Positions 1,124-64,000 of a DNA stretch of 64,000 nt are shown here, piece after piece. Source of the stretch: Frondihabitans peucedani (GTDB lineage: Bacteria; Actinomycetota; Actinomycetes; Actinomycetales; Microbacteriaceae); contig NZ_BAABAU010000003.1 in NCBI RefSeq assembly GCF_039537585.1, forward strand, positions 248,001 to 312,000. Direction: 5' to 3'. Every line of letters starts with the position of its first letter. Within the stretch, counting starts at the first letter, position 1. The position numbers and the translations under genes are program-made. Under the pieces are notes generated by a model. That model was not told the origin of the DNA. It saw only the letters and a list, made by a program, of their open reading frames with translations, and searched no databases.

Positions 1124-1169
1124 GCGCAGGATCCGGGCCCGACCGGCCACAGCATCCTGCTCTCCCCGC

Positions 1170-2693
1170 TCAGGCGCCCAGCGACTCCCGGTTGACGTCC
1201 TGCGGGCGGACGAGCGCGAGGGTCGGCTGGTCGGTCGGCTGCGGCCCTCCCGGGATCGGCTGCCGCCCCTCGGCGAGGTCTCCGTGGCCCGTGCCGATGA
1301 GCGCGAGGTTGCGCATCGACTGGCTTCCGGGCGTGAAGTAGCGGTTGTGGGTCAGGACGGCGGACAGGGACTGCTCGGTGAAGGGGTCGGTGCCTCCGGC
1401 CACGTCGAGGAGGGTGGCTCCGTAGAGGGTGGATCCGGGGTCGGCCCCGAAGAAGCCGCTGCCGGCGACCGGGTCGAGGGCGGCGGCCGCGGCGTAGACC
1501 TGGCCGCGGGTGACGGCGAGGTCGCCGGCCTTCGCGACCACGCTGCCGGGCGACCCGAGTGCCACGAACGAGTCGACGTGGATCTTCCCGGAGGTGAGGG
1601 CGATGCTGGCGGTCGTGGAGCCGTAGGAGTGCGCGATCAGGGTGACGTGCGGCTCCGATCCTGCGCGCGCCGCCGTCAGCCCCTGGACGGCGTCCTCCAG
1701 GTGCACGGCGCCCGCCTCGGCCAGCGACAGGCCGAGGACGTTGGTCAGGTCGGGCGTGCGGTAGCCCATCCAGGCGATCGTCGCGTTCGTCGCGGCCGAG
1801 GCCGTCGCATCGGTGGCGAGCGTGCTCGACCAGAAGTCCTGCGCGGAGTGGAGGTCGGCGGCGCGGTCCGTCCACCAGGTGATCTGGTTCGACACCGTGT
1901 AGAGCATGCCGGGGACCATCATCGTGACGTTGTCGGCGGTGTCGACGTCGCCGACGGCCACCGCGGCCTTGCCCGGGAACACCGTGTCGAGCGACAGGAG
2001 GCTCCGCTTCGCGTCGTCGCCCTCGCGTCCGCGGTCGAGCGCGATCTCGACCTGCTGCAGCATGACGAGGCGCCGCGAGTCCGCGGACGCCCCGAGGAAC
2101 CCGCTGCCCTGGGCATCGACCTCGCCGCGGAGGTGCGCGACCGTGGAGCTGAGCGTGAGCCGGTTGGCGAGGTCGCGGGTGTCGTAGGGGACGCCCTCGA
2201 GGTTGCCGACGACCGAGGGGAGGTCGGCGACCAGCTCGGTCTGCCGCGCTGCGGTCAGGTCGTGCCACCAGACGCTCGTCGCGGTGGCCGACCCGCGCTC
2301 GCCGAGCGCCGTCGCGAAGGTCACCGCCGACGAGTCGTCGGAGTCGAACGAGCGAGCGAAGCGGCCGAGGACCGCCGGCTCGACGTCGGCGAGCTGCGAC
2401 AGGCAGGCCGACGCCCGGATGTCGCCGGACGTCGTCGCGGCCAAGGCCGTGCCGTCGACGGCTCCGCAGGAGGAGAGGTCGGTCGAGCTCTCGGGGACGC
2501 CCTCCACGGGCGCGGACAGCTCGACGGCGGTCGAGCGCTGCGGGAGGACCTCCGCGCGGCGGACTGCCGACACGAGAGAGACGGTCACCGGAGGCGCGTC
2601 GGACACCGCCTGGTGCACCGGCACGGCAGGCGACCCGGCCACGCCGAACACGTGGACCGAGGAGTACAAGATGGCTGCGACAACTAACAGCAC
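1170..2693 (-). CDS. Secreted or membrane-anchored alpha/beta hydrolase, DUF1023 family
   Basis: 507 residues. A short hydrophobic N-terminus (MLLVVAAILYSS) suggests a signal peptide or anchor, so the protein probably acts outside the membrane. DUF1023 features are PSVVGNLEGVPYDTRDLANR and, near residue 330, the nucleophile elbow AHSYGST, where Ala replaces the first Gly of GxSxG. Later Asp and His residues (including GTGHGDLAEG) could complete a Ser-His-Asp triad. These families resemble lipases or esterases, but no substrate can be inferred. GTG at 2691-2693 is the first start in frame; a weak AGGGG lies upstream. A nested inverted repeat occupies the leader (2709-2756). Confidence 0.82.
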   Translation of the reverse strand: MLLVVAAILYSSVHVFGVAGSPAVPVHQAVSDAPPVTVSLVSAVRRAEVLPQRSTAVELSAPVEGVPESSTDLSSCGAVDGTALAATTSGDIRASACLSQLADVEPAVLGRFARSFDSDDSSAVTFATALGERGSATATSVWWHDLTAARQTELVADLPSVVGNLEGVPYDTRDLANRLTLSSTVAHLRGEVDAQGSGFLGASADSRRLVMLQQVEIALDRGREGDDAKRSLLSLDTVFPGKAAVAVGDVDTADNVTMMVPGMLYTVSNQITWWTDRAADLHSAQDFWSSTLATDATASAATNATIAWMGYRTPDLTNVLGLSLAEAGAVHLEDAVQGLTAARAGSEPHVTLIAHSYGSTTASIALTSGKIHVDSFVALGSPGSVVAKAGDLAVTRGQVYAAAAALDPVAGSGFFGADPGSTLYGATLLDVAGGTDPFTEQSLSAVLTHNRYFTPGSQSMRNLALIGTGHGDLAEGRQPIPGGPQPTDQPTLALVRPQDVNRESLGA

Positions 2694-2708
2694 GTCGGGA
2701 ATCCCCTA

Positions 2709-2756
2709 CTAGCGCACCTGGGTCTCGTACCCCTACAGACGAGATCGATGCGCTAG
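2709..2756. promoter_or_regulatory. Nested inverted repeat between ligA and the DUF1023 hydrolase gene
   Basis: An outer 8-base arm pair CTAGCGCA (2709-2716) / TGCGCTAG (2749-2756) encloses an inner 6-base pair TCTCGT (2723-2728) / ACGAGA (2739-2744). It lies in the 130-base gap downstream of ligA and just upstream of the hydrolase start. No T-run follows on either strand, so it may be an operator, an attenuator or a weak terminator for ligA. Confidence 0.45.
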
Positions 2757-2823
2757 CACACAGCTTAGGGAGCCGCGTGTACCCCTGACCAGCCCAGGGC
2801 CGGATCCATCAGAAACTGTCCCC

Positions 2824-6236
<3,413 letters not shown>

Positions 6237-6242
6237 GCGTCC

Positions 6243-6274: not shown

Positions 6275-7540
6275 ATGACTTCTCCGGCCGCCTCCTTCTC
6301 GCTGCGGTCCGTCGCACTCGCCGCCTTCCTGCCCGCCGCGCTCTTTGCGATCGGCGAGGGCGCCATCATCCCGATCATCCCGGTGGCGAGCGACAACCTC
6401 GGCGCCTCGCTCGCGATCTCGGCGTTCGTCGCCTCGCTGATCCTGGTGGGCGAGCTCATCGGCGACATCCCGAGCGGCTGGCTGGTGTCGCGCATCGGCG
6501 AGCGGACGGCGATGATCGGCGCGGCGCTGATCAGCGTCGTCGGGCTGCTGGTGAGCGTCGCGGCGCCGAACGTCTGGATCCTGGCGCTCGGCGTCTTCCT
6601 GATCGGCCTGTCGACGGCCGTCTTCGCCCTCGCGCGGCACGCCTACATGACGACCTTCGTCCCTCCCGAGATCCGGGCGCGCGCCCTGTCGAGCCTCGGC
6701 GGGGTCTTCCGCTTCGGCTACTTCGTCGGCCCGTTCCTCTCCGCCGGTCTGATCCACCTCACCGGCTCGGTGCAGTCGGCGTTCTGGATCCACATCGGCG
6801 GCTGCCTCGCCGCGGCCGCCGTCCTGATCTTCATCAAGGACCCGGGCCTCGGCAGCACTCCCACCCGGTCGCTCGCTCGACCCGCGGCGCCGCGCTCAGC
6901 GGGCGAGGCGGAGGTGGCGCAGGAGGCTCAGGGCCTGTTCCCGACGCTGTGGAAGTACCGCGGGGTGCTGGTGAAGCTCGGCAGCGGCGCGGCCCTCATC
7001 GGCGCCATGCGCGCGGGGCGCCAGGTGATCCTGCCCCTCTGGGCCGTCTCGATCGGCATCGGCTCGTCGCAGACCGCCCTCATCATCGGCATCGCCGGCG
7101 CCATCGACTTCGGCCTCTTCTACACGAGCGGGCAGATCATGGACCGCTGGGGCCGGATGTGGAGCGCGATGCCCTGCATGGTCGGGCTCGGGATCTCGTA
7201 CGTCGTGCTGTCGCTGACGCACGATCTGCCGACGAGCGTCACCTGGTTCATCGGCGTCGCCATGTTCATGTCGGTGGCCAACGGGATCGGGTCGGGGATC
7301 CTGATGACCCTCGGCGCCGATCTGGCCGACAAGGCGAACCCCGCCCCGTTCCTCGGCGCGTGGCGCTTCACCGGCGACTTCGGGAGCGCCGCCGCACCGC
7401 TGCTGATCTCCGGCCTCACGGCCCTCGTGTCGATCTCGCTCGCGAGCGGCGTGATGGGCATCCTCGGCTTCGTCGGGGCCCTGATCCTGCTCCGCTACGT
7501 GCCGCGGTACAGCCCGCACCAGCCGCACCTGAAGCGGTAG
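6275..7540 (+). CDS. MFS transporter
   Basis: 421 residues with about 12 hydrophobic segments, split by a central charged loop near residues 190-225. The region GELIGDIPSGWLVSRIGERTAM matches the conserved MFS loop between helices 2 and 3. ARHAYMTTFVPPEIRARALSSLGG follows in the first half, a pattern seen in drug/proton antiporter-like members. The substrate cannot be read from sequence. ATG at 6275 lies 7 bases after a TAGGCT box and lacks a Shine-Dalgarno sequence. It is divergent from mnmA and followed by tRNA-Leu. Confidence 0.9.
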   Translation: MTSPAASFSLRSVALAAFLPAALFAIGEGAIIPIIPVASDNLGASLAISAFVASLILVGELIGDIPSGWLVSRIGERTAMIGAALISVVGLLVSVAAPNVWILALGVFLIGLSTAVFALARHAYMTTFVPPEIRARALSSLGGVFRFGYFVGPFLSAGLIHLTGSVQSAFWIHIGGCLAAAAVLIFIKDPGLGSTPTRSLARPAAPRSAGEAEVAQEAQGLFPTLWKYRGVLVKLGSGAALIGAMRAGRQVILPLWAVSIGIGSSQTALIIGIAGAIDFGLFYTSGQIMDRWGRMWSAMPCMVGLGISYVVLSLTHDLPTSVTWFIGVAMFMSVANGIGSGILMTLGADLADKANPAPFLGAWRFTGDFGSAAAPLLISGLTALVSISLASGVMGILGFVGALILLRYVPRYSPHQPHLKR

Positions 7541-7770: not shown

Positions 7771-8463
7771 ATGCTGCCGCTGGCCACGCTTTCCTTCCTC
7801 GATCCCGAGGCTCTCATCCACGCTTTCGGCGCCTGGGCGGTGCTCGGCATCTGCGCGATCATCTTCGCCGAGACGGGCCTGCTCGTCGGCTTCATCTTCC
7901 CGGGCGACACCCTGCTGGTGCTCGCCGGCGTCATCGCCGCCAAAGACTCGTACGGCCTCGGGCTGCCGATCTGGCTGATCGCCCTGTGCATCGCCGTGGC
8001 GGCGTTCCTCGGCGGCGAGCTCGGCTACCTCATCGGCCACAAGATCGGTCCGCGCATCTTCGAGCGGAAGGAGAGCGGCCTCTTCTCGTCGGAGAACGTC
8101 AAGCGCACCAACGCGTTCTTCGAGAAGTTCGGCTCGTTCGCCGTGATCCTGGCCCGGTTCGTCCCGGTCGTCCGCACGTTCACGCCGATCGCGGCGGGCG
8201 TCGCCCACATGCACTACCGGAAGTACTCGCTGTACAACGCCATCGGCGCGGTGGCCTGGGGCTTCGGGATCACGATGCTCGGGTTCGGCATCGGGCACAT
8301 CCCGCCGGTCGCGAAGTTCGTCGAGGACTACATCGACCTGATCCTGCTCGGGGCCGTCGTCCTCTCGGTCGTACCGGCTCTGCTGCAGGTCTTCCGCACG
8401 AGCCGCAAGGCGAAGCGCGCCGCGGCCGCGGACGCCGACGGCACGTCGCCCGCTCAGCCGTAG
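7771..8463 (+). CDS. DedA family membrane protein
   Basis: 230 residues with about five hydrophobic segments. Hallmarks of the DedA/VTT family are FAETGLLVGFIFPGDTLLV near residues 33-51 and the re-entrant region RFVPVVRTFTPIAAGV, with the conserved Arg and Pro residues implicated in proton-dependent lipid handling. Family members act as undecaprenyl-phosphate or phospholipid flippases; the particular lipid cannot be assigned here. GGAG lies 8-9 bases before ATG. The C-terminus is basic and Ala-rich. Confidence 0.92.
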   Translation: MLPLATLSFLDPEALIHAFGAWAVLGICAIIFAETGLLVGFIFPGDTLLVLAGVIAAKDSYGLGLPIWLIALCIAVAAFLGGELGYLIGHKIGPRIFERKESGLFSSENVKRTNAFFEKFGSFAVILARFVPVVRTFTPIAAGVAHMHYRKYSLYNAIGAVAWGFGITMLGFGIGHIPPVAKFVEDYIDLILLGAVVLSVVPALLQVFRTSRKAKRAAAADADGTSPAQP

Positions 8464-8562: not shown

Positions 8563-9195
8563 CTACTCGGCCGACGCCAGCGCCGCGATCCTCGGCGCGA
8601 GGGCCCGGAACGCCTGCGACCGGTGGCTCGTCGCGTCTTTCTCGGCGACGGTCAGCTCGGCCGCCGAGCGGTCGGCGTCGTCGGGCCGGAAGACGGGGTC
8701 GTAGCCGAAGCCGCCTGATCCTGCGGGGGCTGTCAGCACGACCCCGGGCCACTCGGCGAGCTCGACCGACTCGTCGCTCTCAGCGGCCTCGGCGGGGCCG
8801 TCGGGCCCGACCGCGCCCACGGGCGGCGGCACGACGAGCGCGGCCGCGCACACGAAGGTCGCTCGCCGGTCGGTCGCGTCGCCCAAGTTCTCGAGCAGGA
8901 GGCGCAGGTTGTCGCCGTCGTCGCGGGTGCCGGCGTAGCGGGCCGAGTGGATGCCGGGAGCGCCGTCGAGAGCCGCGACCGCGATGCCCGAGTCGTCGGC
9001 GATGGCGGGCAGCCCGGTGTACGCGGCGGCCGCCCGGGCCTTGATCAGCGCGTTGGCCTCGAAGGTGTCGCCGTCTTCGACCGGCTCGGGACCCTCGTAC
9101 GTCACCAGCTCGATCCCCTCGAGGGCCTCGCCCAGGATCCGCCTCAGCTCGTCGACCTTGTGCGCATTGTGCGTGGCGAGCACCACCTTCACCAT
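8563..9195 (-). CDS. rdgB: XTP/dITP diphosphatase (non-canonical purine NTP pyrophosphatase)
   Basis: 210 residues. It hydrolyses dITP, XTP and ITP to monophosphates and so keeps deaminated purines out of DNA. Family motifs are LATHNAHKVDELRRIL at the N-terminus, ADDSGIAVAALDGAPGIHSARYAG near residue 67, GGFGYDPVF and SHRSQAF. An acidic/Pro-rich insertion (residues about 125-155) is longer than in E. coli RdgB. ATG overlaps the rph stop by one base (TGATG), so an rph-rdgB coupled unit is clear. Confidence 0.96.
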   Translation of the reverse strand: MVKVVLATHNAHKVDELRRILGEALEGIELVTYEGPEPVEDGDTFEANALIKARAAAAYTGLPAIADDSGIAVAALDGAPGIHSARYAGTRDDGDNLRLLLENLGDATDRRATFVCAAALVVPPPVGAVGPDGPAEAAESDESVELAEWPGVVLTAPAGSGGFGYDPVFRPDDADRSAAELTVAEKDATSHRSQAFRALAPRIAALASAE

Positions 9196-12558: not shown

Positions 12559-14124
12559 CTAGCTGCGGAGCGCGAACGCGAGCAGCTCGGGCGCGCGGTG
12601 CGCGAAGATCCTGCTCCCGATCAGGATCCCGGCCACCAGCACGACGACACCGGTCGCGAGGCCCGTCAGGAGTGCGAGCGCGGTCAGGCCGACCCGGCCG
12701 TCGATCGCTGCCATCACGGCCAGCCACCCGGTGGGCGCCGACAGCAGGACCGCGCCGCCGAACATGATCGACTGCGACCAGCCCGGAGCCGACCCGGTCG
12801 TCTGCGGCTGCTGGAACGGGTCGTCACCGGGGCGCACCGCCGCGTACGGCAGGGCGGCCGACAGGATGCTCGACAGCCCGAGACCGCTGAGCAGCAGGGC
12901 GAACGAGACTCCGAACTCCGCGCCGAACGCGCCGAAGTCGCCGTGCAGCCAGACGGCCACGAGGCTCCCGACGACGCTGAGCGGGATGCCGATGACGAGC
13001 GGCGGCGCGATCCTGCCCACCCGGTCGGGAAGACCGCCGGTGTTGGTGGCGATGTGCAGCCAGAGGGCGGTGTTGTCGTACGACACGTCGTTGTGCGGGA
13101 GGAAGCCGAGCAGCAGGCACATGAGAGGCACCGGCACGAGCGCGAGCATCGACCAGTCGATCCCGGCGATGCCGAGCGGCACGACGAGCAGCGGAAGGAA
13201 CGGCAGGATCACGAGAGACCACCGGTAGCGGGCGTCTCGCGCCCAGTAGGTCAGGCTCCGCGCGGCCACCGCTCCCGTGGGCGTGCCGAGGGTGAAGTCG
13301 AACCAGCCGAGGCCGACGCGCTCTCCGCTCACAGCCGGTGCCGGGGTGCTGTGGAGGGCGCGCTCGACGAGGGAGCGCCAGGCCCACCAGAGCAGCCCGA
13401 TGCTCGCGAGGGCGACGACGAGGCCGCCGATCACCCGGCCGGTGTCGCCGGTCGCCGCGTGCGCGGGAAGAGCGAGGGCGGCGCCGAAGGGCGTCCAGCC
13501 GAGGGCCGAGGTCCAGAAGCTCGAGCCCGGGTATCCGCCGGGCAGCAGCACCCGCACCAGGTCGACGACGAGGGGCACGAGCAGGATCGCGAGGACGATC
13601 CCTCCGGCGACGAGGAGGTCGCGCGAGCGCCGGGTGGTGCTCATCGCCGACAGCGTCGACGCCACGAGCGCCAGCAGGAGCGCCGTGACGCCGGCCAGCA
13701 CGGACGAGACGACGGCGAGCCAGGCGATGCCGGTGCCCTCGCTCCACGACCGCACGTAGCCGGTGGCCAGGATGACGAGCGCCAGCGCCGGCAGGCCGAT
13801 CGCGCCGCCGAGGGCGAGCCCCGCGGCAGCCCGGTCGGTGGACACGCCGTAGCCGAAGAGGCGCCGCGGATCGCTCCACGCCGGCCTCGAGGCGGCGAAG
13901 GGGGCCACGAAGAAGGCGACGAGCAGGAGCGAGCCCGCGCCCGTCGTGAGCGCCTCGACCTCGCCGAGCGGCGCGAACCGCAGCTGACTGGCGAGCGCGG
14001 CGACGACGAGAGACGCCACGAGCGCGACGAGCAGGATCACGACGGTCCAGAACGCGGGCCTCAGCCCGAAGCGCAGGCGGTTGCCGATCCCGACGATCCT
14101 CAGTCGGAGAAGCTGTGCAACCAT
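12559..14124 (-). CDS. ABC transporter permease (ABC-2-like, large)
   Basis: 521 residues, almost entirely hydrophobic, with about 12 likely membrane segments beginning at residues 25-45 (FWTVVILLVALVASLVVAAL). There is no ATPase motif. Its ATG lies inside the end of the ATPase gene (25-base overlap), so the two are translated together and should form one transporter. Such large permeases with an ATPase of the LDEPFESVDP type occur in Actinobacteria as exporters of unknown substrate. The assignment rests on topology and context. Confidence 0.82.
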   Translation of the reverse strand: MVAQLLRLRIVGIGNRLRFGLRPAFWTVVILLVALVASLVVAALASQLRFAPLGEVEALTTGAGSLLLVAFFVAPFAASRPAWSDPRRLFGYGVSTDRAAAGLALGGAIGLPALALVILATGYVRSWSEGTGIAWLAVVSSVLAGVTALLLALVASTLSAMSTTRRSRDLLVAGGIVLAILLVPLVVDLVRVLLPGGYPGSSFWTSALGWTPFGAALALPAHAATGDTGRVIGGLVVALASIGLLWWAWRSLVERALHSTPAPAVSGERVGLGWFDFTLGTPTGAVAARSLTYWARDARYRWSLVILPFLPLLVVPLGIAGIDWSMLALVPVPLMCLLLGFLPHNDVSYDNTALWLHIATNTGGLPDRVGRIAPPLVIGIPLSVVGSLVAVWLHGDFGAFGAEFGVSFALLLSGLGLSSILSAALPYAAVRPGDDPFQQPQTTGSAPGWSQSIMFGGAVLLSAPTGWLAVMAAIDGRVGLTALALLTGLATGVVVLVAGILIGSRIFAHRAPELLAFALRS

Positions 14125-46711: not shown

Positions 46712-46817
46712 GCGGGTGCCTCCGACAACGGGGGTCGGATCCTGCGCCCCCTCCGCCCTTCGAGACTGCCGCTTCTGCCGACAGTGAACGCGGGACTCCG
46801 ACGCGTGGGAAGTCGGT

Positions 46818-50187: not shown

Positions 50188-50237
50188 CACGAAGAAGCAA
50201 GCAGACAAGCAGGCACGCGCGCACCCACACCCGCACC

Positions 50238-52188: not shown

Positions 52189-52243
52189 CCGTCCCGGGCG
52201 CAGGGTGCGCAGGATCGCGTCCTCCCCACCGCCAGCGCAGGAT

Positions 52244-52258
52244 CGACTTCTCCACAGC
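52244..52258 (-). repeat. Solitary copy of the 17-base repeat unit
   Basis: CGACTTCTCCACAGC is identical, on the opposite strand, to 15 of the 17 bases of units at 1039-1123. Two GCAGGATC octamers (52209-52216, 52237-52244) flank it. The site is in the gap before the aminopeptidase gene. Confidence 0.55.
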
Positions 52259-53897: not shown

Positions 53898-56800
53898 GTG
53901 GTGCGGGCGGCGGGTCCACGCGTATCGGCCAGGGGGGCGATCATTTCAAGCGATGCACAGCGACGCCGGACGGGCGGGCGAGCACTGGCGGGCGGGGGTG
54001 CCGGTGCCCGCGGTACCGGCGGCGCCGGTGCGGGCGGCGGTAACGGCGCCCGCGGTGCCGGTGCCGGTGCCGGTGCCGGAGGCGCTGCCCGCGGCAGCCT
54101 CGGCCTCGGCACGGGCACGCTGCTCCGACGGCGGGCCCGCCGTCAGCGCGGTCTGCTCGCTGCCCTCGCCGGGGTGCTCGTCGTCGTCGCGGCCTCGCTG
54201 ATCGTGCTGTCGGGGCTCGCCGGAGCCTCCACCGACGCCGGTGCCGCGGGCTTCCTCGAGGCGCAGCCGCCGGTGGCCCGAGCACTCCAGGTGGTCGAGA
54301 CGGCGAGCGGGTCCGCCTCCGTCGAGGCGCGCGGGCGTGCTCGTCTGACGTCGCTCTTCCCGGCCGGCACCGTCGAGGTGTCGTCGGCGGGTCGGGCCGC
54401 GCCCGCTCAGCTGCTGTCGGGCGGAGCGGCGCCCCAGGCTGCAGAGCCGAAAGGGACGAGTGCGGCCGACGAGGTCGTGGTCGCGGCTCTGTCGACTCAC
54501 CGCGGTCTCCGGCTCGTCAGCGGCGACTGGCCGAGTGCCGCCCCCGGAGGGGCGTCCCCGACTCCCGCGGCCGTGCAGGAGCAGGCGGCGCGCGAGCTCG
54601 GGCTCCGCATCGGAGACACCCTCCGGATCGGGACCACGTCCTCTCCCGTCACCGTCCGGATGGTCGGCACCTGGTCGGCGGACGAGCCCGCGGGCGCACG
54701 CTGGTTCGGCGATCCCCTGACGGCCTCGGGGCGGGACGGCACTGCGGCTGGCCCGTTCCTCGTGACGCCCGCCTCCCTCGATCACCTCGCGGACACCCTC
54801 GACGTCGACCACTCGTGGACGATCGAGGTCCTCCCGCGTGGAGTGGACAGAGCGCACCTGCAGGCGGTCCAGCAGGCGGCCGCCCGCGTCGACGCCGCCC
54901 TGCCCGACGCTCGGATCACGTCACGAGAGGCGACGACCACGTCGGGCCGACTGTCCGACACGCTCGACGCCCTGTCGGCGGCCGAGGCCGTGACGGCGGC
55001 CCTGGTCGACGTCGCACTCGCCCTCGTCGCAGCTCTCGGACTCGTCGCGACGCTGCAGCTGGCCGCACTCCTGGCAGCGTCTCGCACTCCCGAGTCGGAT
55101 CTCCTGCGAGCGCGCGGAGCGTCCACCGCACAGCTCGTCGCCGCGACGACGGTCGAGACGGCGGTCCTGGCTCTCCCCGCGGCGGTCATGGGAGTCGGCG
55201 GGGCCGCGGTCGCCCTGCGGCTCGTCGATCCTGCGTCGGTGCCGTCCGCGGGCTTCGCTCTGCTCGTCGCGGGGGTCGTCGTCGGAGGCGCGACCGTCGT
55301 CAGCGCGGTCGTCGCCCTGGTCGCGGGGCGCGCGTCGATCGTCGGCCGTCGTGCGGGCATCGCGAGCCTGACCCTCGCGGCGCTGGCAGCGGTGGTCCTC
55401 GCCGCGCTCGCGACGTGGCGGGTGGTCCTGTACGGCTCGCCGCTGATCGACGGGATCCACGCCGACCCGCTCGCAGCGTTGAGCCCGGTCCTGCTGCTGC
55501 TCGCCGGGGGCCTCGTGGCAGCCGTGGCGACGCGACCGCTGAGCGCCCTGGCCGCGAGGCGCAGTGCCCGGCGGAAGGGGTGGCGCTCCGCTTGGGTGGC
55601 GCGGCAGCTGTCGAGACGCCACTCGGCCTTCGTGGCACCGATCCTCGCGCTCGCTCTCGTGTCGGCCGCGGGCGGCTTCGCCTCCGCGTTCGCGGCGACC
55701 GCGGCGTCCGTCGACGAGCAGGCGGGCAGCATCGTCCTCGGTGCCGACGCCCGGGTGCACTCCGGGGTGAGCGGCTCGGTGACTCCCGGGTCGACCGCCG
55801 TCACAGCGCCACCGATCGCGGGTCTGTCGGGTGTCGGGCACGTTGTCACCGCCCTGGACGACACCGCGGCGCTCGGCGGGTCGACGGTCTCGGTCGTGGC
55901 CCTCCCCGAGACCGCCTTCCCGACGAGCATCGCAGCCCTCCTCGCCGGCGACGAGCCCGTCGGCGTCCGGCTGCCGGCGGGCACGCGGCAGCTCTCCCTG
56001 CGAGCCTCGACGGATTCCCCGACGACGATCGAGGGCTCCTCGTCGGGCGCCACCGTCTCGCTGGTCGCCTGGCTGAGCGATGCGCAGGGCGCCACGATCG
56101 CCGTCCCCCTCCGGACCGGTGACGGGGCCTCAGGCGGCGCAGTCACGAGCGGCACCGATCTCACCCTCGGAGGGTCCGCCTCCCTCCACGCCGTCCTGCC
56201 CGCCGGCGCGGGCGCCTGGCGCCTCGTCGCCGTCGAGCCGACGTTCCGGGTCGCCGACGGCTCCAAGCGGTCGGTGCTGCGGGTGAGCGGTCTCCGGGCC
56301 TCGAGCGACGTCGGCGACGGTGCGGCCCGGGGCGTCTCGCTCGCGGGCAGCGTCGAGGCCCGACTCGACTCCGACGCCCCGCCCCGCCGTCTCGCCGTCG
56401 GTTCGCGGGCAGCAGCGCTCGGCGATGCCGACGCGCCCCTCCGCGTCGTCGTGTCGAACGGCGCGGCCGACGCCCTCGGGCTCCGTCGCGGCTCGAGAAT
56501 CGACGCGGTGCTCGCCTCGACGGCGCAGTCGACCCCTGCCGTGGTGGCGGGAGTGGTCGACCGGATCCCCGGGTCCGGCTCGCGCGAGGCCCTCGCCGTC
56601 GATCTCGTGGCTCTCACGCAGCAGGCCGTGCTCGACGGGACGGCCGTTCCCCAGGCGGACGACGTGTGGGTGACGACGGCTCGGCCGGACGCCCTGCCGG
56701 GGCTCGCCGCCCGCGCCTCCGATCATTCGGTCGAGGTCACGACGCGAGCATCCGCGTCGACTGCCGCTGTCGTCGACGCCGCGTCTTCGGCCCTGTGGTC

Positions 56801-57206
56801 GGCCGCGATCGTCGCGGCGTGCCTCGCTCTCGTCATCCTGTCGGCCGCTGCCGCCGGCCTGGCTCGCAGCCGACGCGACGAGGCGGCGGTCCTCCGCGCG
56901 CTCGGAGTCTCCCCCACCCGTCAGGGGGCCCTGCGCGCCTCGGAGCTCGGCGTCGCAGTGACTCTCGGGCTCCTCGGGGGTGTCGTCGTCGGGCTCGTCG
57001 TCGTCGGATCCGTCGGAGCCCGCTTCGGAGTGGCCGCGTCGCCGGGCGCGTCGGCTCTGCTGGTCTCGCCGCCGGTCTTCGATCCGCTCTCCTGGGCCCT
57101 CTTCGGAGCCGCGACCACAGCGGCCGTCCTGGTCGTCCTGGCCGTCGCAGCCCGCGGGACCGCCCGACGAGCGGCCACGGCTCTCGTGAGAGGGCGTGAC
57201 CGATGA
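53898..57206 (+). CDS. FtsX-family ABC permease with Gly/Ala-rich N-terminus
   Basis: Up to 1102 residues. Residues about 25-70 are Gly/Ala/Arg repeats; a membrane helix follows (LLAALAGVLVVVAASLIVL). A large extracellular region and two FtsX-like groups of four membrane segments (about 355-500; 975-1095, ending VLVVLAVAARGTARR) complete it. The start is uncertain: GTG at 53898, or a rare ATT at 53943 behind AGGGGGGC. The next gene's ATG overlaps its stop (ATGA at 57203). It should pair with the second permease and an ATPase. Confidence 0.85.
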   Translation: MVRAAGPRVSARGAIISSDAQRRRTGGRALAGGGAGARGTGGAGAGGGNGARGAGAGAGAGGAARGSLGLGTGTLLRRRARRQRGLLAALAGVLVVVAASLIVLSGLAGASTDAGAAGFLEAQPPVARALQVVETASGSASVEARGRARLTSLFPAGTVEVSSAGRAAPAQLLSGGAAPQAAEPKGTSAADEVVVAALSTHRGLRLVSGDWPSAAPGGASPTPAAVQEQAARELGLRIGDTLRIGTTSSPVTVRMVGTWSADEPAGARWFGDPLTASGRDGTAAGPFLVTPASLDHLADTLDVDHSWTIEVLPRGVDRAHLQAVQQAAARVDAALPDARITSREATTTSGRLSDTLDALSAAEAVTAALVDVALALVAALGLVATLQLAALLAASRTPESDLLRARGASTAQLVAATTVETAVLALPAAVMGVGGAAVALRLVDPASVPSAGFALLVAGVVVGGATVVSAVVALVAGRASIVGRRAGIASLTLAALAAVVLAALATWRVVLYGSPLIDGIHADPLAALSPVLLLLAGGLVAAVATRPLSALAARRSARRKGWRSAWVARQLSRRHSAFVAPILALALVSAAGGFASAFAATAASVDEQAGSIVLGADARVHSGVSGSVTPGSTAVTAPPIAGLSGVGHVVTALDDTAALGGSTVSVVALPETAFPTSIAALLAGDEPVGVRLPAGTRQLSLRASTDSPTTIEGSSSGATVSLVAWLSDAQGATIAVPLRTGDGASGGAVTSGTDLTLGGSASLHAVLPAGAGAWRLVAVEPTFRVADGSKRSVLRVSGLRASSDVGDGAARGVSLAGSVEARLDSDAPPRRLAVGSRAAALGDADAPLRVVVSNGAADALGLRRGSRIDAVLASTAQSTPAVVAGVVDRIPGSGSREALAVDLVALTQQAVLDGTAVPQADDVWVTTARPDALPGLAARASDHSVEVTTRASASTAAVVDAASSALWSAAIVAACLALVILSAAAAGLARSRRDEAAVLRALGVSPTRQGALRASELGVAVTLGLLGGVVVGLVVVGSVGARFGVAASPGASALLVSPPVFDPLSWALFGAATTAAVLVVLAVAARGTARRAATALVRGRDR

Positions 57207-59968
57207 ACTCACCGAAGCCCGGCCGACGCGCACCCCGGGGGCGCAGGATCAGCGGCGCCGCCCTCGCCCTCCGCACTCTCCGCGCCCACGTCTCCTCGGC
57301 CCTCGGCATCGCGCTCCTGAGCCTCCTCCTCGCCGCTGCCGGCATCGTCACGCCGCAGGTGACCTCGGCGCTGCTCGCAGCAGGCCTCGACTACGACGTG
57401 ACGCGGGCCACCGCGGTCGAGCGCGACCTCACGACGACATTCCCCGGGGGTCCGGCCGTCGGGACGGCGCCGACGGCGGGAGACGCCGGCACGAGCTCGG
57501 GCCGGAGACTCGATGCTGCCGACGAAGAGGTCTGGGGCGCCTTCGACAGCGAGCTCGCCTCCGTCCGGGCATCGCTGCCGAGTCCGCTCCGCCGGGCCAC
57601 GGGCCCGGCCGAGTACGCCGCGACGACCTCCTCGATGGACCTCGTCCAGTTTCCCGGAGGACTCCTCGGGAGCGCGCTCTCGCTCACGTCCGGCCCGGGT
57701 TTCGCGAGCCGCGTCCGGATCGTGCAGGGGTCCGCCCCCACCGCGGTGACCGTTCCCGGCGACACGATCCCCCTGATGCTCACGAGGAGCTCGGCCGACG
57801 TCCTCCGGTGGAGGGTCGGTGCCGTGCACGAGATGACGACGTCCGACGGCGGAACCGCCCGCGCGAGACTGACCGGCATCTTCGTGCCGCGTGATCGGTC
57901 CGACGACTTCTGGGGGCACTCCTTCGGCGTGCTCTCCGTGACCTACCGGGCGGCCTCGAAGGGGCCGCCGACACCTGTGGCCACCGGAGTCGTCGCGGGC
58001 GCGGGCTATCCCGCGCTCCAGGCGCTGCCGCAGGCGGGCTACCAGGGCGATCTCCAGACCCAGGCGTGGTTCCCGATCCGGTCGAGCGGGCTCGATCCTG
58101 CGAATGCGGCCACGATCGCGACCCAGGTGCGTCGCTTCTCGTCGGTGCGTCACTCCGTGCCGTCGGCGGGAGACGCCCCGCTCCCCTTCTCCACGCGGCT
58201 CCCCGACGTCGTCGCCGACGCCCAGGCGCGCCTCGCCACGGCCTCGTCGCTCTCCGACTCCGTGCTCGCGGGTCCCCTCGGCGCGGCGCTCGCCCTCGAG
58301 ATCCTGCTCGCCCGCCTCGTCGTGACCAGGGCGCGCTCGGCGCTCGAGCTGATCGGCGCGCGCGGTGCCGGCCCGGGCTGGCTGCGCCTCCGCGTGATGC
58401 TCTTCGCCAGCGTCGCAGCGGTGCCGGGGGCGATCGTCGGCGGTCTCCTCGGCAGCGTCGCGGCGCGGTTCGTCGCCGGCTCCGGTCCCTCCGAATCGCT
58501 CTTCGCAGCCGTGGTGCTCGCGGTCGCCCTGCTGCCCGTCGTGGTCTTCGGCCTGTCCCTGCCCCGGCTCGTCCGGCGGGAAGGGCGCGTCCCCCTACGA
58601 TCGCTCGTCGAAGCGGGCACCGTGCTCCTGACGGTCGTCTCCGCTCTCGTGGTCGCTCGGCGCGGCATCGGCGAGGCACCTCCGGGCGCGGGGCTCGACC
58701 CCGTCCCCGCGGCGCTCCCCGTCCTCCTGGGGCTCACCGGCTGCATCGTCGCGCTCCGACTGCTCGGACCCCTCCTCGACGCCGCCCGCGCTCGCGCCAA
58801 GCGGCGACGCGGCCCGTCACTCGCGACCGGCCTGGCTCTGGCCCGACGCAACCGGACGGGCACGGCGGCGCCGCTGTTCGCCGCGACGATCGGCATCGCG
58901 GTCGCGCTCTTCTGCAGCGTCCTCGGCTCGACGCTCTCCCACGGTCTCGACGAGGCGGCCCACGCGCGGGTGGGCGCCGACGTCTCCGCGGTGACGAGCC
59001 CCCTCGACTTCACGACGGAGATCCCCTTCGACACGGTGCCGGGTGAAGCGCACACGGCCTTCGTGAGCGACACGGCGCAGGTGCAGATCAAGGCCGGGAC
59101 GGCCACCGTCCTCGCCACGGCGGTCGTCGTCGATCCTGCGTCGCTCCGTCGCGTCCAGGCCGGGGTGCCCGGCGCCGTCCCGCTCCCCGCGGCGCTCGGC
59201 CGCTCGGCCGCCCGCGGCACGCCCGTCGTCCTCTCGGGAGACCTCGCCGACCGTCTCGCTCAGACGGGCGGCACGATCGAGGGGCAGCGGCTCGAGCCGG
59301 TCGAGGTGTCGCGGGCTCCGCTCGGGCTCCTCCCCGACACCGACCTCTGGCTCGTCGTCTCCGAGTCCCGGGCGTCGTCGCTCGGGGTCGACAACGACGC
59401 CCCCGACCGCACCCTCCTCCGCCTCGACCAGGGCGCCGACTCCCGGGCCGCAGCCGCGGGCGTCCGCCGTCTGCTCGGCGGCGGGATCGCGGTCAGCACT
59501 GTCGACCAGGTCGAGGCGGAGCTCTCCGAGAACCCGCTCGTCCCGGGACTTCAGCGGATCGCCGTCGAGGCCGCCGTCCTCGCCGCGTCGTTCGGACTCC
59601 TGTCGCTGCTGGCGGCCACCGTCCTCGAGACCGCCGAGAGACGGCGCAGGATCGACCTCCTCACCCTCCTCGGCATGTCGCGCAGCCAGCGGCGTCGCCT
59701 GGTCCTCGCGGAGACGGCACCTCTCGGCGCGACGGCCCTCGCCGCCGGCTGCGTCGTAGCGGCCCTGATGGTCGCGCTCGTGCTGCCCTCAGCCGACCTG
59801 AGGTCGTTCACGGGGGCCCAGGCCCGGCCCGCGATCCACCTCGATCCCGTGATCCTGCCCCTGCTCGTGCTCGCCGGGCTCGCCGCCACCGCGGCCGTCT
59901 CGGCCGTCGCCGTCGCCCTCTCCCGTCCCCTCGCCCCAGGATCCCACCGCCCGGAAGGCTCAGAATGA
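57203..59968 (+). CDS. FtsX-family ABC permease
   Basis: 921 residues. One N-terminal helix (LGIALLSLLLAAAGIV) precedes a large extracellular region, a central FtsX core (about 350-530), a second extracellular domain and a C-terminal four-helix core (about 780-905) with RRRIDLLTLLGMSRSQRRRLVL, a typical FtsX cytosolic loop. It overlaps genes on both sides as ATGA. This two-permease, two-ATPase layout suggests a heteromeric exporter or lipoprotein/peptide releasing system of MacB/LolCDE type; the substrate is unknown. Confidence 0.88.
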   Translation: MNSPKPGRRAPRGRRISGAALALRTLRAHVSSALGIALLSLLLAAAGIVTPQVTSALLAAGLDYDVTRATAVERDLTTTFPGGPAVGTAPTAGDAGTSSGRRLDAADEEVWGAFDSELASVRASLPSPLRRATGPAEYAATTSSMDLVQFPGGLLGSALSLTSGPGFASRVRIVQGSAPTAVTVPGDTIPLMLTRSSADVLRWRVGAVHEMTTSDGGTARARLTGIFVPRDRSDDFWGHSFGVLSVTYRAASKGPPTPVATGVVAGAGYPALQALPQAGYQGDLQTQAWFPIRSSGLDPANAATIATQVRRFSSVRHSVPSAGDAPLPFSTRLPDVVADAQARLATASSLSDSVLAGPLGAALALEILLARLVVTRARSALELIGARGAGPGWLRLRVMLFASVAAVPGAIVGGLLGSVAARFVAGSGPSESLFAAVVLAVALLPVVVFGLSLPRLVRREGRVPLRSLVEAGTVLLTVVSALVVARRGIGEAPPGAGLDPVPAALPVLLGLTGCIVALRLLGPLLDAARARAKRRRGPSLATGLALARRNRTGTAAPLFAATIGIAVALFCSVLGSTLSHGLDEAAHARVGADVSAVTSPLDFTTEIPFDTVPGEAHTAFVSDTAQVQIKAGTATVLATAVVVDPASLRRVQAGVPGAVPLPAALGRSAARGTPVVLSGDLADRLAQTGGTIEGQRLEPVEVSRAPLGLLPDTDLWLVVSESRASSLGVDNDAPDRTLLRLDQGADSRAAAAGVRRLLGGGIAVSTVDQVEAELSENPLVPGLQRIAVEAAVLAASFGLLSLLAATVLETAERRRRIDLLTLLGMSRSQRRRLVLAETAPLGATALAAGCVVAALMVALVLPSADLRSFTGAQARPAIHLDPVILPLLVLAGLAATAAVSAVAVALSRPLAPGSHRPEGSE

Positions 59969-60969
59969 CCACAGGCACAGCGAGACCGCCGCTCGGCGTC
60001 CGCCCGGAACCCGACATCCTCTGCTCCGACCTCGTGCGGATCTACCGGTCGCGCGACGTCGAGGTCCAGGCGCTGCAGGGCCTCGACCTGCGGGTGGAGC
60101 GCGGCGAGATGGTGGCGCTGGTCGGCGCCTCGGGGAGCGGCAAGTCCACGCTCCTCGGGATCCTCTCGGGGCTCGACGAGCCGAGCGCGGGGCGGGCCGT
60201 GGTGGCCGGGCAGGATCTCGCCGGCTTGACCGTCCGGCAGCGCACGGCCTTCCACCGCAGCCGCGTCGGCTTCGTCTGGCAGCAGACGGCGCGCAACCTG
60301 CTGCCGTTCCTCACCGCGGCACAGAACGTCGCGGCCGTGCTCGCCGTCTCCGGGGGCTCTCGCCGCCGCGACGGCGCCAGCCGCGTCGGCACCGGCCGCG
60401 CGGACCGCGTCGCCGAGGTGCTCGAGCTCGTCGGCGTTCCGGAGCTCCGCGACCGCTTCCCGTCCGAGCTCTCCGGCGGTCAACAGCAGCGCGTGGCCCT
60501 GGCGGTGGCGATGGCGAACCGGCCGACCGTCCTCCTCGCCGACGAGCCGACCGGCGCTCTCGACGAGGAGACGAGCGGGGAGGTGCTGGAGGCGATGGAG
60601 CGGGTCAACCGCCAGAGCGGCGTCACGACGCTGATCGTGACCCACGACGCCTCCGTCGCCGAGCACGTCGAGCGCACGATCCAGATCCGCGACGGGCGCA
60701 CGTCGACCGAGGTGGTCCGGTCCCGGTCGGGAGAAGACGGCGCCGTGACCGCCGAGGAGTACTCGGTGATCGACCGGGTGGGCCGGCTCCAGCTCCCGCA
60801 GGCGTTCCAGGAGTCGCTCGGCCTCCACGACCGCGTGCGGCTCTCGCTGCAGTCCGACCACGTGGCCGTGCGGCCGGCGCAGCAGGCGGACGACGCCGAC
60901 TCGCAGGACCGGGAGGCCGAGCGGGCGCCGAGGCACGCGGGCGGGGCCGGAGAGGGGGGCCGGGCATGA
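59965..60969 (+). CDS. ABC transporter ATP-binding protein (MacB/LolD type) with C-terminal extension
   Basis: 334 residues. Walker A is VGASGSGKST, the signature ELSGGQQQRVALA, and Walker B PTVLLADEPTGALDEET. Residues about 240-334 are an added tail: a VTAEEYSVIDRVGRLQLPQAF segment, as in other actinobacterial ATPases of this class, then a charged disordered end. The ATGA overlaps at both ends make it part of the four-gene operon. Confidence 0.94.
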   Translation: MTTGTARPPLGVRPEPDILCSDLVRIYRSRDVEVQALQGLDLRVERGEMVALVGASGSGKSTLLGILSGLDEPSAGRAVVAGQDLAGLTVRQRTAFHRSRVGFVWQQTARNLLPFLTAAQNVAAVLAVSGGSRRRDGASRVGTGRADRVAEVLELVGVPELRDRFPSELSGGQQQRVALAVAMANRPTVLLADEPTGALDEETSGEVLEAMERVNRQSGVTTLIVTHDASVAEHVERTIQIRDGRTSTEVVRSRSGEDGAVTAEEYSVIDRVGRLQLPQAFQESLGLHDRVRLSLQSDHVAVRPAQQADDADSQDREAERAPRHAGGAGEGGRA

Positions 60970-61637
60970 GCGGCCCGATCCTGCGCGCTGTCGGACTCGG
61001 ACGCGACTTCGTCTCGGCGGGCGAGACGGTCCGTGTCCTGGACGACGTGTCTCTGGAGGTCGCACCGGGCGAGCTCGTCGTCGTCCGCGGCCAGTCGGGC
61101 TCGGGCAAGTCGACTCTGCTCAACCTCCTCTCGGGGCTCGACCGCCCCACGCGCGGGGAGGTGCTCCTCGGCGACGAGCGCCTCGACCTCGCCGGCCCCG
61201 AGCGCCTCGCCGACCTGCGGCGCGACCGGCTCGGCATCGTCTTCCAGGCGTTCGGGCTCCTGTCGGTGCTGACCGCCGCCGAGAACGTGGAACTCCCGCT
61301 CAGGATCTCCCGCACCTCCGGAAGGCGGCGCGATGCCCGGGTCGCGGAGGTGCTCGACCTCGTCGGGCTCTCCGAGCATGCGGCGCAGCGCCCCGAGGAG
61401 CTGTCGGGCGGTCAGCAGCAGCGGGTCGGGATCGCCCGCGCCATCGCCGGGCGCCCCGAGGTCCTCATCGCCGACGAGCCGACGGCCCAGCTCGACAGCG
61501 TCACGGGCGCGGCGATCCTGGAGCTGCTCGTCTCGATGGTCGAGACCGACGGGATGGCGGCGGTCGTCGCGACCCACGACGAGTCGCTCGCCGCTCGGGC
61601 CGACCGGGTGGTGACGCTCCGGGCACGCCGGGTCTGA
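60966..61637 (+). CDS. ABC transporter ATP-binding protein (MacB/LolD type)
   Basis: 223 residues, a minimal ATPase. Walker A is VRGQSGSGKSTLL, the signature ELSGGQQQRVGIARA, and Walker B VLIADEPTAQLD. It is the last gene of the FtsX-FtsX-ATPase-ATPase operon, coupled by ATGA. The second ATPase could replace or pair with the first, giving an asymmetric ATPase dimer. Confidence 0.94.
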   Translation: MSGPILRAVGLGRDFVSAGETVRVLDDVSLEVAPGELVVVRGQSGSGKSTLLNLLSGLDRPTRGEVLLGDERLDLAGPERLADLRRDRLGIVFQAFGLLSVLTAAENVELPLRISRTSGRRRDARVAEVLDLVGLSEHAAQRPEELSGGQQQRVGIARAIAGRPEVLIADEPTAQLDSVTGAAILELLVSMVETDGMAAVVATHDESLAARADRVVTLRARRV

Positions 61638-62192: not shown

Positions 62193-62228
62193 TCGGACAT
62201 TAAACACGGTGGGCTCAGCGCGACAGGC

Positions 62229-62234
62229 TAAATT
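62229..62234 (+). promoter_or_regulatory. -10 box for the PRC/MgtE-N/CBS gene
   Basis: TAAATT, six bases before the GTG at 62241; a close match to TATAAT and a clear example of the leaderless pattern. Confidence 0.55.
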
Positions 62235-62240
62235 GGGTCC

Positions 62241-63560
62241 GTGAGCGCCACGAGAGTCTTCGTCGCCCGTCTGGCCGGGTGCTCCGTTTTCGACCCCGCG
62301 GGCGATCGCGTCGGCAAGGTCCGCGATGTCCTGATCGTCTACCGCTCGACCGAGTCCCCGCGCGTCGTCGGCTTCGTCGTCGAGGTCCCGGGCAAACGGC
62401 GCGTCTTCGTCAGCATCGGCCGCGTGACCAGCATCGGCTCGGGTCAGATCATCACCACAGGCACCGTCACGCTCCGCCGGTTCGAGCAGCGCGGCGGCGA
62501 GGTCCGCGTCATCGCCGAGCTCCTCGGGCGGCGCGTGCGCCTGCGTCACGACAACTCCGCCGCCACGATCGAGGACGTCGCGATCGACGAGGTCGGCGAG
62601 GGCGACTGGGAGGTCTCGCAGGTCTTCGTCAGGAAGCCGAAGACGAGCCCGTCGCCGTTCGGCAAGGGCGCGACGGTGTTCGCCGCCTGGAGCGACGTCC
62701 GCGAGGAGGACGCCGACGGCGAGGCCCAGAGCGCCGAGCACGTCATCGCGGCATACGCCGACCTCCTGCCCGCCGACCTCGCGAACACCCTCCTCGACCT
62801 CTCGGAGGAGCGCCGCTTCGAGGTCGCCGGCGAGCTGTCCGACGGCCGTCTCGCCGACGTGCTCGAGGAGATGCCCGAAGACGAGCAGGTCCACATCCTG
62901 AACCGGCTCGAGGACAGCCGCGCAGCCGACGTCCTCGACCAGATGCAGCCCGACGACGCAGCCGACCTCATCGCGCAGCTCTCCGACGAGCGCGGCGAGG
63001 CCCTGCTCGAGCTCATGGAGCCCGAAGAGGCCGAAGACGTCCGGATGCTCCTGAGCTACGACTCCGACACCGCCGGCGGTCTCATGACCACCGAGCCCGT
63101 GATCGTGTCCGGCGACGCGACCGTCGCCGAGGGCCTGGCGATGATCCGCCGCCACGAGATCGCGCCTGCGCTCGGGGCCGCGGTCTGCGTCGTCCTGCCG
63201 CCCTACGAGCCGCCGACCGGCCGCTTCCTCGGCATGGTGCACTTCCAGCGGATGCTCCGGTATCCGCCGAACGAGCGGCTCGGCACGCTGATCGATCAGC
63301 AGCTCGAGCCGGTCAACGTCGGCGCCTCGGCGCTCGAGGTCACCCGGGTCATGGCGAGGTACAACCTCGTCTCCGTCCCCGTGGTCGACGACAACCACCG
63401 ACTTGTCGGGGTGGTGACAATCGACGACGTCCTCGACCATGTGCTCCCCGACGACTGGCGCAGCCAGGATCCCGAGGGGCCCCTCGGCAGAACCCGGCCC
63501 CGGCTCAGAAGAACCCCCGTGACAAGCACCGGAAGGAGGACGACCAATGGCACGCGATAG
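62241..63560 (+). CDS. Soluble PRC-barrel, MgtE-N and CBS domain protein
   Basis: 439 residues, homologue of Rv1232c. A PRC-barrel-like N-terminus (about 1-160, GDRVGKVRDVLIVY) is followed by an MgtE intracellular domain (about 165-280, LPADLANTLLDLSEERRFEVAGEL) and a CBS pair (about 285-410, GGLMTTEPVIVSGDATVAE and RYNLVSVPVVDDNHRLVGVV). There is no membrane segment, so it cannot transport magnesium itself; it may sense Mg2+ or nucleotides. It overlaps the DUF1003 gene by 14 bases. Confidence 0.92.
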   Translation: MSATRVFVARLAGCSVFDPAGDRVGKVRDVLIVYRSTESPRVVGFVVEVPGKRRVFVSIGRVTSIGSGQIITTGTVTLRRFEQRGGEVRVIAELLGRRVRLRHDNSAATIEDVAIDEVGEGDWEVSQVFVRKPKTSPSPFGKGATVFAAWSDVREEDADGEAQSAEHVIAAYADLLPADLANTLLDLSEERRFEVAGELSDGRLADVLEEMPEDEQVHILNRLEDSRAADVLDQMQPDDAADLIAQLSDERGEALLELMEPEEAEDVRMLLSYDSDTAGGLMTTEPVIVSGDATVAEGLAMIRRHEIAPALGAAVCVVLPPYEPPTGRFLGMVHFQRMLRYPPNERLGTLIDQQLEPVNVGASALEVTRVMARYNLVSVPVVDDNHRLVGVVTIDDVLDHVLPDDWRSQDPEGPLGRTRPRLRRTPVTSTGRRTTNGTR

Positions 63561-64000
63561 CCGCAGCGACGTCCGTCTCGATTCACCCAAGGGCCTCCGC
63601 GTCCGCGTCCTCCCGGGCCGCGGCCGACAGAGTCGCGACAGCTTCGGGCGGGCCACCGAGGCCATCGCCCGCGGCATGGGCACCCCCTACTTCCTGATCG
63701 CGCTGACGCTGTTCTGTCTGCTCTGGATCTTCTGGAACACGTCTCTTCCGGCGTTCCTGCGCTTCGACTCGTCGGCGAACGGCTTCACGGCCCTGACGCT
63801 GGTGCTCTCCCTCCAGGCCTCGTACGCCGCGCCCCTGATCCTGCTCGCGCAGAACCGTCAGGACGACCGCGACCGCGTGCAGGTGGAGCAGGATCGCCAG
63901 CGCGCCGAGCGCAACCTCGCCGACACCGAGTACCTCGCCCGCGAGGTCGTGGCCCTGCGGCTCGCGATCAAGGACATGGCCTCGAAGGACTTCATCCGAG
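63547..64000 (+). CDS. DUF1003 family membrane protein (3' end outside window)
   Basis: About 151 residues are present and the frame is open at the window edge. AAGGAGGA (63533-63540) lies six bases before the ATG, the best ribosome site in the window. Two membrane segments (FLIALTLFCLLWIFWNTSLP; LTLVLSLQASYAAPLILLAQ) with DFIR near the end are typical of DUF1003. Its ATG is inside the end of the CBS-protein gene, so the two are coupled (homologue of Rv1231c). Confidence 0.93.
   Translation, partial: MARDSRSDVRLDSPKGLRVRVLPGRGRQSRDSFGRATEAIARGMGTPYFLIALTLFCLLWIFWNTSLPAFLRFDSSANGFTALTLVLSLQASYAAPLILLAQNRQDDRDRVQVEQDRQRAERNLADTEYLAREVVALRLAIKDMASKDFIR

Follow-up and report, generated by a model that had tools for sequence, protein, structure and literature searches.

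The octamer GCAGGATC as a possible self-DNA watermark on the chromosomes of Frondihabitans

What keeps a single DNA word at a density far above expectation throughout a bacterial chromosome? The question is raised by the octamer GCAGGATC in a stretch of 64,000 nucleotides (C3:248001-312000, hereafter the window) of the Frondihabitans (Microbacteriaceae) genome G000, which comprises 3,692,699 bases in 12 contigs. The word is very probably under selection or drive. A tentative reading, based on comparative sequence analysis, is that it might serve as a watermark of self DNA on the Frondihabitans chromosome, working like the uptake sequences of other bacteria. The most telling features are the dialects in related genomes and the scarcity of the word on plasmids, neither of which had been seen by an earlier note on the window.

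Abundance of the word and synonymous choice

The window contained 57 copies of GCAGGATC on both strands (27 forward and 30 reverse), against a mean of 3.49 and a largest value of 9 in 100 dinucleotide shuffles. The over-representation described in the earlier note was confirmed and is stronger than was stated there, the count of 45-50 copies having been too low. According to our own gene calls, six copies are intergenic, one overlaps a gene end and 50 lie within genes, 35 of them antisense and 15 sense. The intergenic copies that had been named (1126, 46738, 52209, 52237) were correctly located and all lie outside the gene calls, and the six named as in frame (16729, 35046, 39840, 55227, 58094, 59132) all read GAT CCT GC in frame. 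Maximum-order Markov scoring of the window octamers proved useless, as the heptamers enclosed in them are enriched too.

Genome-wide, G000 carries 3208 copies (1579 forward and 1629 reverse), about 0.87 per kb, a density of the HIP1-like or uptake-like order rightly suggested before. The control for this search was GCAGGATC in reversed letter order, which occurs 22 times; since CTAG, which is rare in general, forms part of it, this control is weak. For this reason we relied on a null in which synonymous codons were shuffled over all genes and octamers were scored against the outcome. It was applied to a 664-kb chromosome sample (the window, C1:1-200000 and twenty 20-kb stretches placed every 100 kb of C1), in which a home-made gene finder called 603 genes. 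This sample held 521 copies within genes (0.887/kb), 72 outside, a class to which any genes missed by the finder would contribute, and 9 across gene ends. The genic copies were antisense in 302 cases and sense in 219, a preference that codons alone likewise produce, and their position inside genes was flat.

In the genes of this sample, 522 copies were observed vs a mean of 52 after the shuffle, which makes GCAGGATC the most over-represented of all octamers. The excess was found in every frame: 100 vs 0.56 for GAT CCT GC, 77 vs 0.64 for GCA GGA TC, 81 vs 5.8 for N-Arg-Ile, 62 vs 3.9 for Gln-Asp, 198 vs 41 for Ile-Leu, and 4 vs 0.12 for the remaining frame. The word spelled 100 of the 191 Asp-Pro-Ala and 77 of the 231 Ala-Gly-Ser tripeptides. 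Asp-Pro-Ala is as frequent as in relatives while its spelling is skewed to the word, and therefore it is mostly synonymous choice that is bent, by a DNA word rather than by codon preference; the frequency of Ala-Gly-Ser is somewhat higher than in relatives (11.8 vs 6.8-9.2 per 10,000 codons). Codon usage as the cause is ruled out by the synonymous shuffle together with the equal density between genes. The genome-wide count and the excess between genes had been set beforehand as possible grounds for refutation; they came out at 3208 copies and 0.941/kb, and both, together with the codon-shuffle excess, support the earlier claim of a DNA word favoured over codon choice.

Copies of GCAGGATC in the window, with strand and setting, are as follows (genes by coordinates and strand where given).
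1126-1133 (+), intergenic
1657-1664 (-), sense, GCA GGA TC in frame, gene 1170-2693 (-)
3024-3031 (+), antisense, gene (-)
5380-5387 (-), sense in frame, gene 5091-6236 (-)
7027-7034 (-), antisense, gene 6275-7540 (+)
7483-7490 (-), antisense, gene 6275-7540 (+)
8340-8347 (-), antisense, gene 7771-8463 (+)
8717-8724 (-), sense in frame, gene 8563-9195 (-)
12607-12614 (-), sense, gene 12559-14124 (-)
13009-13016 (-), sense, gene 12559-14124 (-)
13203-13210 (+), antisense, gene 12559-14124 (-)
13581-13588 (+), antisense, gene 12559-14124 (-)
14031-14038 (+), antisense, gene 12559-14124 (-)
14327-14334 (+), antisense, gene (-)
15136-15143 (+), antisense, GAT CCT GC in frame
16729-16736 (-), antisense, GAT CCT GC in frame, gene 16408-17100 (+)
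17761-17768 (-), antisense, gene 17195-18007 (+)
19024-19031 (-), antisense, gene (+)
19928-19935 (-), antisense, GAT CCT GC in frame
22133-22140 (+), antisense, GAT CCT GC in frame
24499-24506 (-), sense, gene 23561-24604 (-)
26742-26749 (-), antisense, gene 26509-27708 (+)
27030-27037 (-), antisense, gene 26509-27708 (+)
27202-27209 (+), sense in frame, gene 26509-27708 (+)
28296-28303 (-), sense, gene 27705-28520 (-)
28465-28472 (+), antisense, GAT CCT GC in frame
28814-28821 (-), sense, gene 28541-29557 (-)
30206-30213 (+), antisense, gene 29847-32723 (-)
32375-32382 (+), antisense, gene 29847-32723 (-)
33930-33937 (+), antisense, gene (-)
35046-35053 (-), antisense, GAT CCT GC in frame, gene 34209-35573 (+)
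35572-35579 (-), overlaps end of gene 34209-35573 (+)
37444-37451 (-), sense, gene 36431-38143 (-)
38210-38217 (+), antisense, gene 38145-39098 (-)
39840-39847 (-), antisense, GAT CCT GC in frame, gene 39174-40175 (+)
40352-40359 (+), antisense, helicase gene 40257-43544 (-)
42710-42717 (+), antisense, helicase gene 40257-43544 (-)
46738-46745 (-), intergenic
49738-49745 (+), sense in frame, gene 48244-49767 (+)
50004-50011 (+), intergenic, in hairpin repeat unit 2
50126-50133 (+), intergenic, in hairpin repeat unit 3
50615-50622 (+), antisense, gene 50238-51092 (-)
50836-50843 (+), antisense, GAT CCT GC in frame
51333-51340 (-), antisense, gene 51169-52188 (+)
52209-52216 (+), intergenic
52237-52244 (+), intergenic
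55227-55234 (-), antisense, GAT CCT GC in frame, gene 54174-57206 (+)
57243-57250 (+), sense, gene 57203-59968 (+)
58094-58101 (-), antisense, GAT CCT GC in frame, gene 57203-59968 (+)
58300-58307 (-), antisense, gene 57203-59968 (+)
59132-59139 (-), antisense, GAT CCT GC in frame, gene 57203-59968 (+)
59646-59653 (+), sense, gene 57203-59968 (+)
59851-59858 (-), antisense, gene 57203-59968 (+)
60210-60217 (+), sense, gene 59965-60969 (+)
60977-60984 (-), antisense, gene (+)
63837-63844 (-), antisense, gene 63547-63999 (+)
63888-63895 (+), sense, gene 63547-63999 (+)

The hairpin repeat at 49862-50188 is a tandem array of three units, each measuring about 122 bp and bounded by long inverted ends (ATGGACGGAGAT...ATCTCCGTCCAT); the units are predicted to form strong hairpins (-37 to -45 kcal/mol). 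Units 2 and 3 contain GCAGGATC, unit 1 has GCGAAATC at the matching place, and further copies of the ends were found in loci L104 and L113.

Shape, spacing and orientation of the site

The core CAGGAT was enriched despite altered ends: replacement of the first G by A, C or T gave 76, 148 and 107 copies vs 18, 40 and 31 expected, and the near-match GCAGGATG occurred 157 times vs 28 expected. All three alternatives exceeded expectation at positions 1, 4, 5 and 7, as did two of three at position 8, and all three fell below it at positions 2 and 6. Preferences extended into the flanks of the 72 intergenic copies, with C directly before the word in 50 and G before that in 41, and on the 3' side C as the second base in 43 and G as the third in 47; the corresponding context frequencies are 0.34-0.37, 0.31, 0.29 and 0.41. 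These data suggest that the site is graded and spans about 12 bases, which is not what a strict restriction or modification site would look like.

Spacing of the copies was near-random (coefficient of variation 0.98), and even spacing was rejected, the variance/mean ratio in 2-kb bins being 0.86, barely below random. No consistent strand bias was observed, with 93 vs 96 copies over the first 200 kb and up to 6 vs 13 in single 20-kb stretches. The local bias follows gene direction (Spearman -0.59, p 0.004), as would be expected from the more frequent antisense placement within genes, and it is also correlated with GC skew (0.51, p 0.016). Replication polarity was examined in G198, another Frondihabitans genome, with 213 copies in twenty stretches round its 4.04-Mb contig: the best rotation reached 0.573 vs a null mean of 0.554 (p 0.19), the origin not having been located and the start of the contig not being dnaA, as judged from the proteins there. 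Strand polarity of the type known from Chi or the FtsK-orienting polar sequences (KOPS) was rejected on the grounds that neither G000 nor G198 showed a consistent strand bias. The word resembles KOPS and other polar segregation words in being an octamer scattered over the chromosome, and differs from them in that no strong polarity towards the terminus was found and local bias follows gene direction.

Orientation is not indifferent between neighbours. Neighbouring words were opposite rather than alike in 320 vs 250 cases in G000, where pairs closer than 12 bp were excluded, and in 227 vs 172 in three congeners taken together (G198, G203 and G200), a total of 547 vs 422 (p 7e-5). Among the 28 pairs under 50 bp, 16 face each other, nine of these as overlapping palindromes.

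Dialects, plasmids and conservation in place

The relatives analyzed included F. sucicola (G203), the nearest named relative (95% over the best-matching segment when 958 residues were used as query), PhB188 (G202), Leaf304 (G199) and PAMC 28766 (G200). A species tree of 58,797 columns joined G000 with G203, G200 with G198, and G202 with G199. Copies of GCAGGATC in the seven Frondihabitans genomes numbered 3208, 2135, 2092, 2980, 1013, 919 and 844. When congeners were subjected to the codon shuffle (120 kb per genome, 520 kb for G198), GCAGGATC was the top octamer in G203, G200 and G198. Other words ranked first elsewhere: GCAGGAGC in G201 (60 vs 14.4), CGCAGGAA and GCAGGAAC in G202 (23 vs 4 and 29 vs 6), and AGGATCCG in G199 (45 vs 8); in these three genomes GCAGGATC was still above expectation (31 vs 7, 30 vs 7 and 21 vs 4.5, respectively). 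GCAGGAGC was also strong in G198 (243 vs 67), and genome-wide it reached 1682 copies in G201 and 2193 in G198, the five remaining Frondihabitans genomes having between 358 and 589; G201 and G198 are not sisters in the tree.

Alignment of G000 sites to F. sucicola showed that 46 of 85 were identical, vs 22% of flanking octamers (p 1e-10). In G201, GCAGGATG, with the last base changed from C to G, stood at 10 of 60 gap-free sites, where 2 were expected (p 3e-5), and in G199 a lone C-to-G change of the second base distinguished 6 of 61 sites, vs 1.7 expected (p 0.006); both changes were chosen after viewing the tables, and the p values are uncorrected for that.

In three Frondihabitans species, sequence that is plasmid-borne or resembles a plasmid has few copies of the word. 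There are 6 on contig C2 of G000 (94 kb), for which only size and composition suggest a plasmid. On the F. sucicola plasmid NZ_AP027733.1, 60 kb contained 3 copies and 50 kb a single one, vs 89 in 120 kb of chromosome. In PAMC 28766, two contigs of plasmid size had 9 copies in 60 kb, and a further 50 kb of plasmid 1 had 6, vs 68 in 120 kb of chromosome. In addition, four GC-poor stretches of G198 contained 14 copies and the sixteen others 199.

Outside the genus, among 391 other genomes of the family, a like density was found only in G249, of the distant genus g119 (1559 copies in 2.9 Mb), where GCAGGATC was also the top octamer by codon shuffle (40 vs 6); G508 carries 1012 copies in 3.4 Mb. 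The presence of the word in g119 (G249; loci L134-L135 and L154-L155) could reflect either convergence or transfer of a reader. Five loci of the sister genus Frigoribacterium had 1 or 2 copies per 23 kb.

For a survey of other genera of the family we took 64 samples, each of about 20 kb: a choice of 28 among the 80 named loci, and all of the 40 unnamed stretches except four that were short or poor in genes, which gave the other 36. Dropping three samples with fewer than 3000 codons left 61. These represent at most 58 genomes, with Humibacter present as L078 and G259, G508 twice and Glaciihabitans dw_435 probably as L010 and G254. The survey omits L017 (Curtobacterium Leaf261, which showed no such word in a separate test) and most other Curtobacterium loci; top words pooled from the 30 Curtobacterium loci were spurious and were not counted, these loci being homologous. 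The top heptamer contained GGAT in 18 of the 61 samples vs 1.9 expected (p 2e-13, somewhat overstated owing to the duplicates). A threshold of z>4 was exceeded by CGGATGC in 17 samples and by CGGATCC in 6, vs a mean of 0.37 samples for composition-matched controls; CAGGATC and AGGATCC exceeded it in none. The strongest word outside Frondihabitans in the samples was CGGATCC in Clavibacter (39 vs 3.6 and 40 vs 6.3 in loci L054 and L065, about 6- to 11-fold), and none of the four tested words reached z>4 in the samples of Frigoribacterium, Leifsonia and Agreia.

A broader proposal, which we put forward with more reserve than the watermark itself, is that Microbacteriaceae possess a fast-changing identity word with a GGAT core (CGGATGC, CGGATCC, GCAGGATC, GCAGGAGC, AGGATCCG and others) that might act as a species-level password for DNA uptake or recombination. 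It would be the first such signal in Gram-positives, and the specificity of its reader would have shifted several times within one genus. With seven related genomes, counts from 844 to 3208 and four dialects, Frondihabitans makes reader and word traceable together. As a separate observation, G265 (L213) showed enrichment of CGGAACGG and ACCGTTCC beside GGATGCCG, perhaps another dialect.

Candidate readers and competing explanations

With a codon effect excluded and both segregation words and a Dam-type methylase unlikely, a protein that favours word-bearing DNA is the most likely of the explanations that remain. We infer that this protein reads the word, that the act concerned is DNA uptake and that uptake drive causes the accumulation. 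A sequence-specific DNA-binding protein would favour DNA in which the core CAGGAT is preceded by roughly GC and followed by roughly NCG. The most likely setting would be natural transformation through a ComEA/ComEC pathway with a pilus, as happens with the DNA uptake sequences (DUS) of Neisseriaceae and the uptake signal sequences (USS) of Pasteurellaceae. Fragments carrying the word would be taken up and recombined more often, so that the word would build up, on either strand and with no polarity, at every place where the encoded protein can accommodate it. If the reader shifted in specificity the word would follow, giving rise to dialects between species.

Excerpts of the literature describe uptake sequences from these two families, record dialects (PMC3630211), and report no general orientation bias together with a preferred orientation inside genes (PMC2346458). 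GCAGGATC is like DUS and USS in its thousands of copies at near one per kb, in and between genes, on both strands without general orientation bias and with one orientation commoner in genes (302 antisense vs 219 sense). The dialects among related species, the scarcity on plasmids and the presence of ComEC, a ComEA-type domain and T2SSE ATPases extend the likeness. In contrast to DUS and USS, GCAGGATC is shorter (8 bp plus weak flanks), has a GGAT-type core and belongs to a high-GC Gram-positive family, and its inverted pairs near gene ends seem not to be prominent. No earlier report of the word was found among the papers listed by a literature search.

ComEC was found in 30 of 31 genomes (missing from G240), and a ComEA-type domain in 20 of 20, lying in G000 about 750 bases from the ComEC match on one strand. 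T2SSE-type ATPases were present in 30 of 30 genomes, with a high-scoring member, probably PilB-like, in 19 of the 30. Several observations weigh against an uptake watermark. Clavibacter carries its word strongly yet lacks the high-scoring ATPase, having only weaker representatives of that family, and the ComEC match of G200 (C1:2981383-2982173) is split between two frames in a genome where the word is abundant. ComEC, ComEA and the T2SSE ATPases occur equally in Frigoribacterium and Leifsonia, where no GGAT word was seen, and do not co-vary with the word; because of this equal presence in word-poor genera, the competence genes permit uptake and do not prove it. No receptor for the word was found, nor was any statement of natural competence in Frondihabitans found among the papers listed by a search, and two papers on Micrococcus luteus transformation do not contain the terms 'uptake sequence', 'uptake signal' or 'sequence-specific'. 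Beyond F. sucicola, sites were not clearly kept above their flanks (18/59 vs 22% in G200, 17/62 vs 25% in G198, 19/72 vs 24% in G202, 12/69 vs 19% in G199 and 10/69 vs 16% in G201), and in Frigoribacterium 0 of 15 were kept vs 21%. Furthermore, the word was not rarer in window and C1 DNA without a counterpart in congeners (0.97 vs 0.86 per kb).

A Chi-like role, in which a helicase-nuclease (AdnAB or another end-resecting enzyme) would read the word on a single strand, stop degradation and start recombination, self DNA being spared, is unlikely on our assessment. Like the Chi sites of RecBCD and AddAB, the word is non-palindromic, over-represented on chromosomes and scarce on plasmids. Its density is several times that of Chi in E. 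coli, which counts against this role. The window contains two AdnAB-like genes with weak matches to the UvrD, AddA and AddB models, none over a curated cut-off, and the names AdnA and AdnB rest on these matches and on the earlier note, which had considered a recombination role worth testing on account of the neighbouring AdnAB. That hint was not borne out: AdnB was found in 30 of 30 genomes, word-rich and word-poor, and the AdnB of G249, which shares the word, is divergent (41% identity, other genera showing 37-57% and Frigoribacterium 68%). A link by neighbourhood was rejected, the presence of the word showing no co-variation with AdnAB. Action through AdnAB is therefore the weaker explanation, given the universality of AdnB and the lack of replication polarity in G000 and G198. 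Whether AdnAB responds to Chi is described as unknown in an excerpt of PMC4824097.

We consider about equally doubtful a word like the highly iterated palindrome HIP1 of cyanobacteria (GCGATCGC), tied to a DNA methyltransferase or a chromosome-structuring protein and kept by selection for spread-out marks or binding sites. Its density and its extreme over-representation as an octamer overriding codon choice resemble those of HIP1; moreover, GCAGGATC ends in GATC, and its near-random spacing fits a structural mark. It has to be noted, however, that GCAGGATC is not a palindrome, that its degenerate ends and flanks do not fit a strict modification site, and that the dialects GCAGGAGC, GCAGGAAC and CGGATGC lack GATC. 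A link of HIP1 to a methylase is described in an excerpt of PMC4390886. Of the 31 genomes, 7 had the D12/Dam-type methylase family (PF02086), including G203, G202 and the word-sharing G249, and 24 lacked it, including G200, G198, G201, G199, both Clavibacter and G000 (0 matches), although other methylase families were not tested; a D12 methylase was accordingly rejected as the reader in G000. Should a Chi-like or structural role hold instead of an uptake watermark, the word would provide actinobacterial end resection with the signal that it lacks so far, or else represent a chromosome mark of a new kind. Whichever applies, the codon statistics of Microbacteriaceae carry a DNA-level signal.

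Finally, a mutational or mismatch-repair bias, such as very-short-patch repair, making the word without function would agree with its similar density in and between genes and with tripeptide frequencies near those of relatives, as a neutral process would give, but is improbable in view of near-matches that show no single source-product pair, sites kept in place with G203 and the contrast between chromosome and plasmid within one cell.

The codon shuffle of the 664-kb sample also revealed a strong depletion of GGAGGATG/CATCCTCC in genes (8 vs 104 expected), perhaps through avoidance of a sequence resembling a ribosome-binding site.

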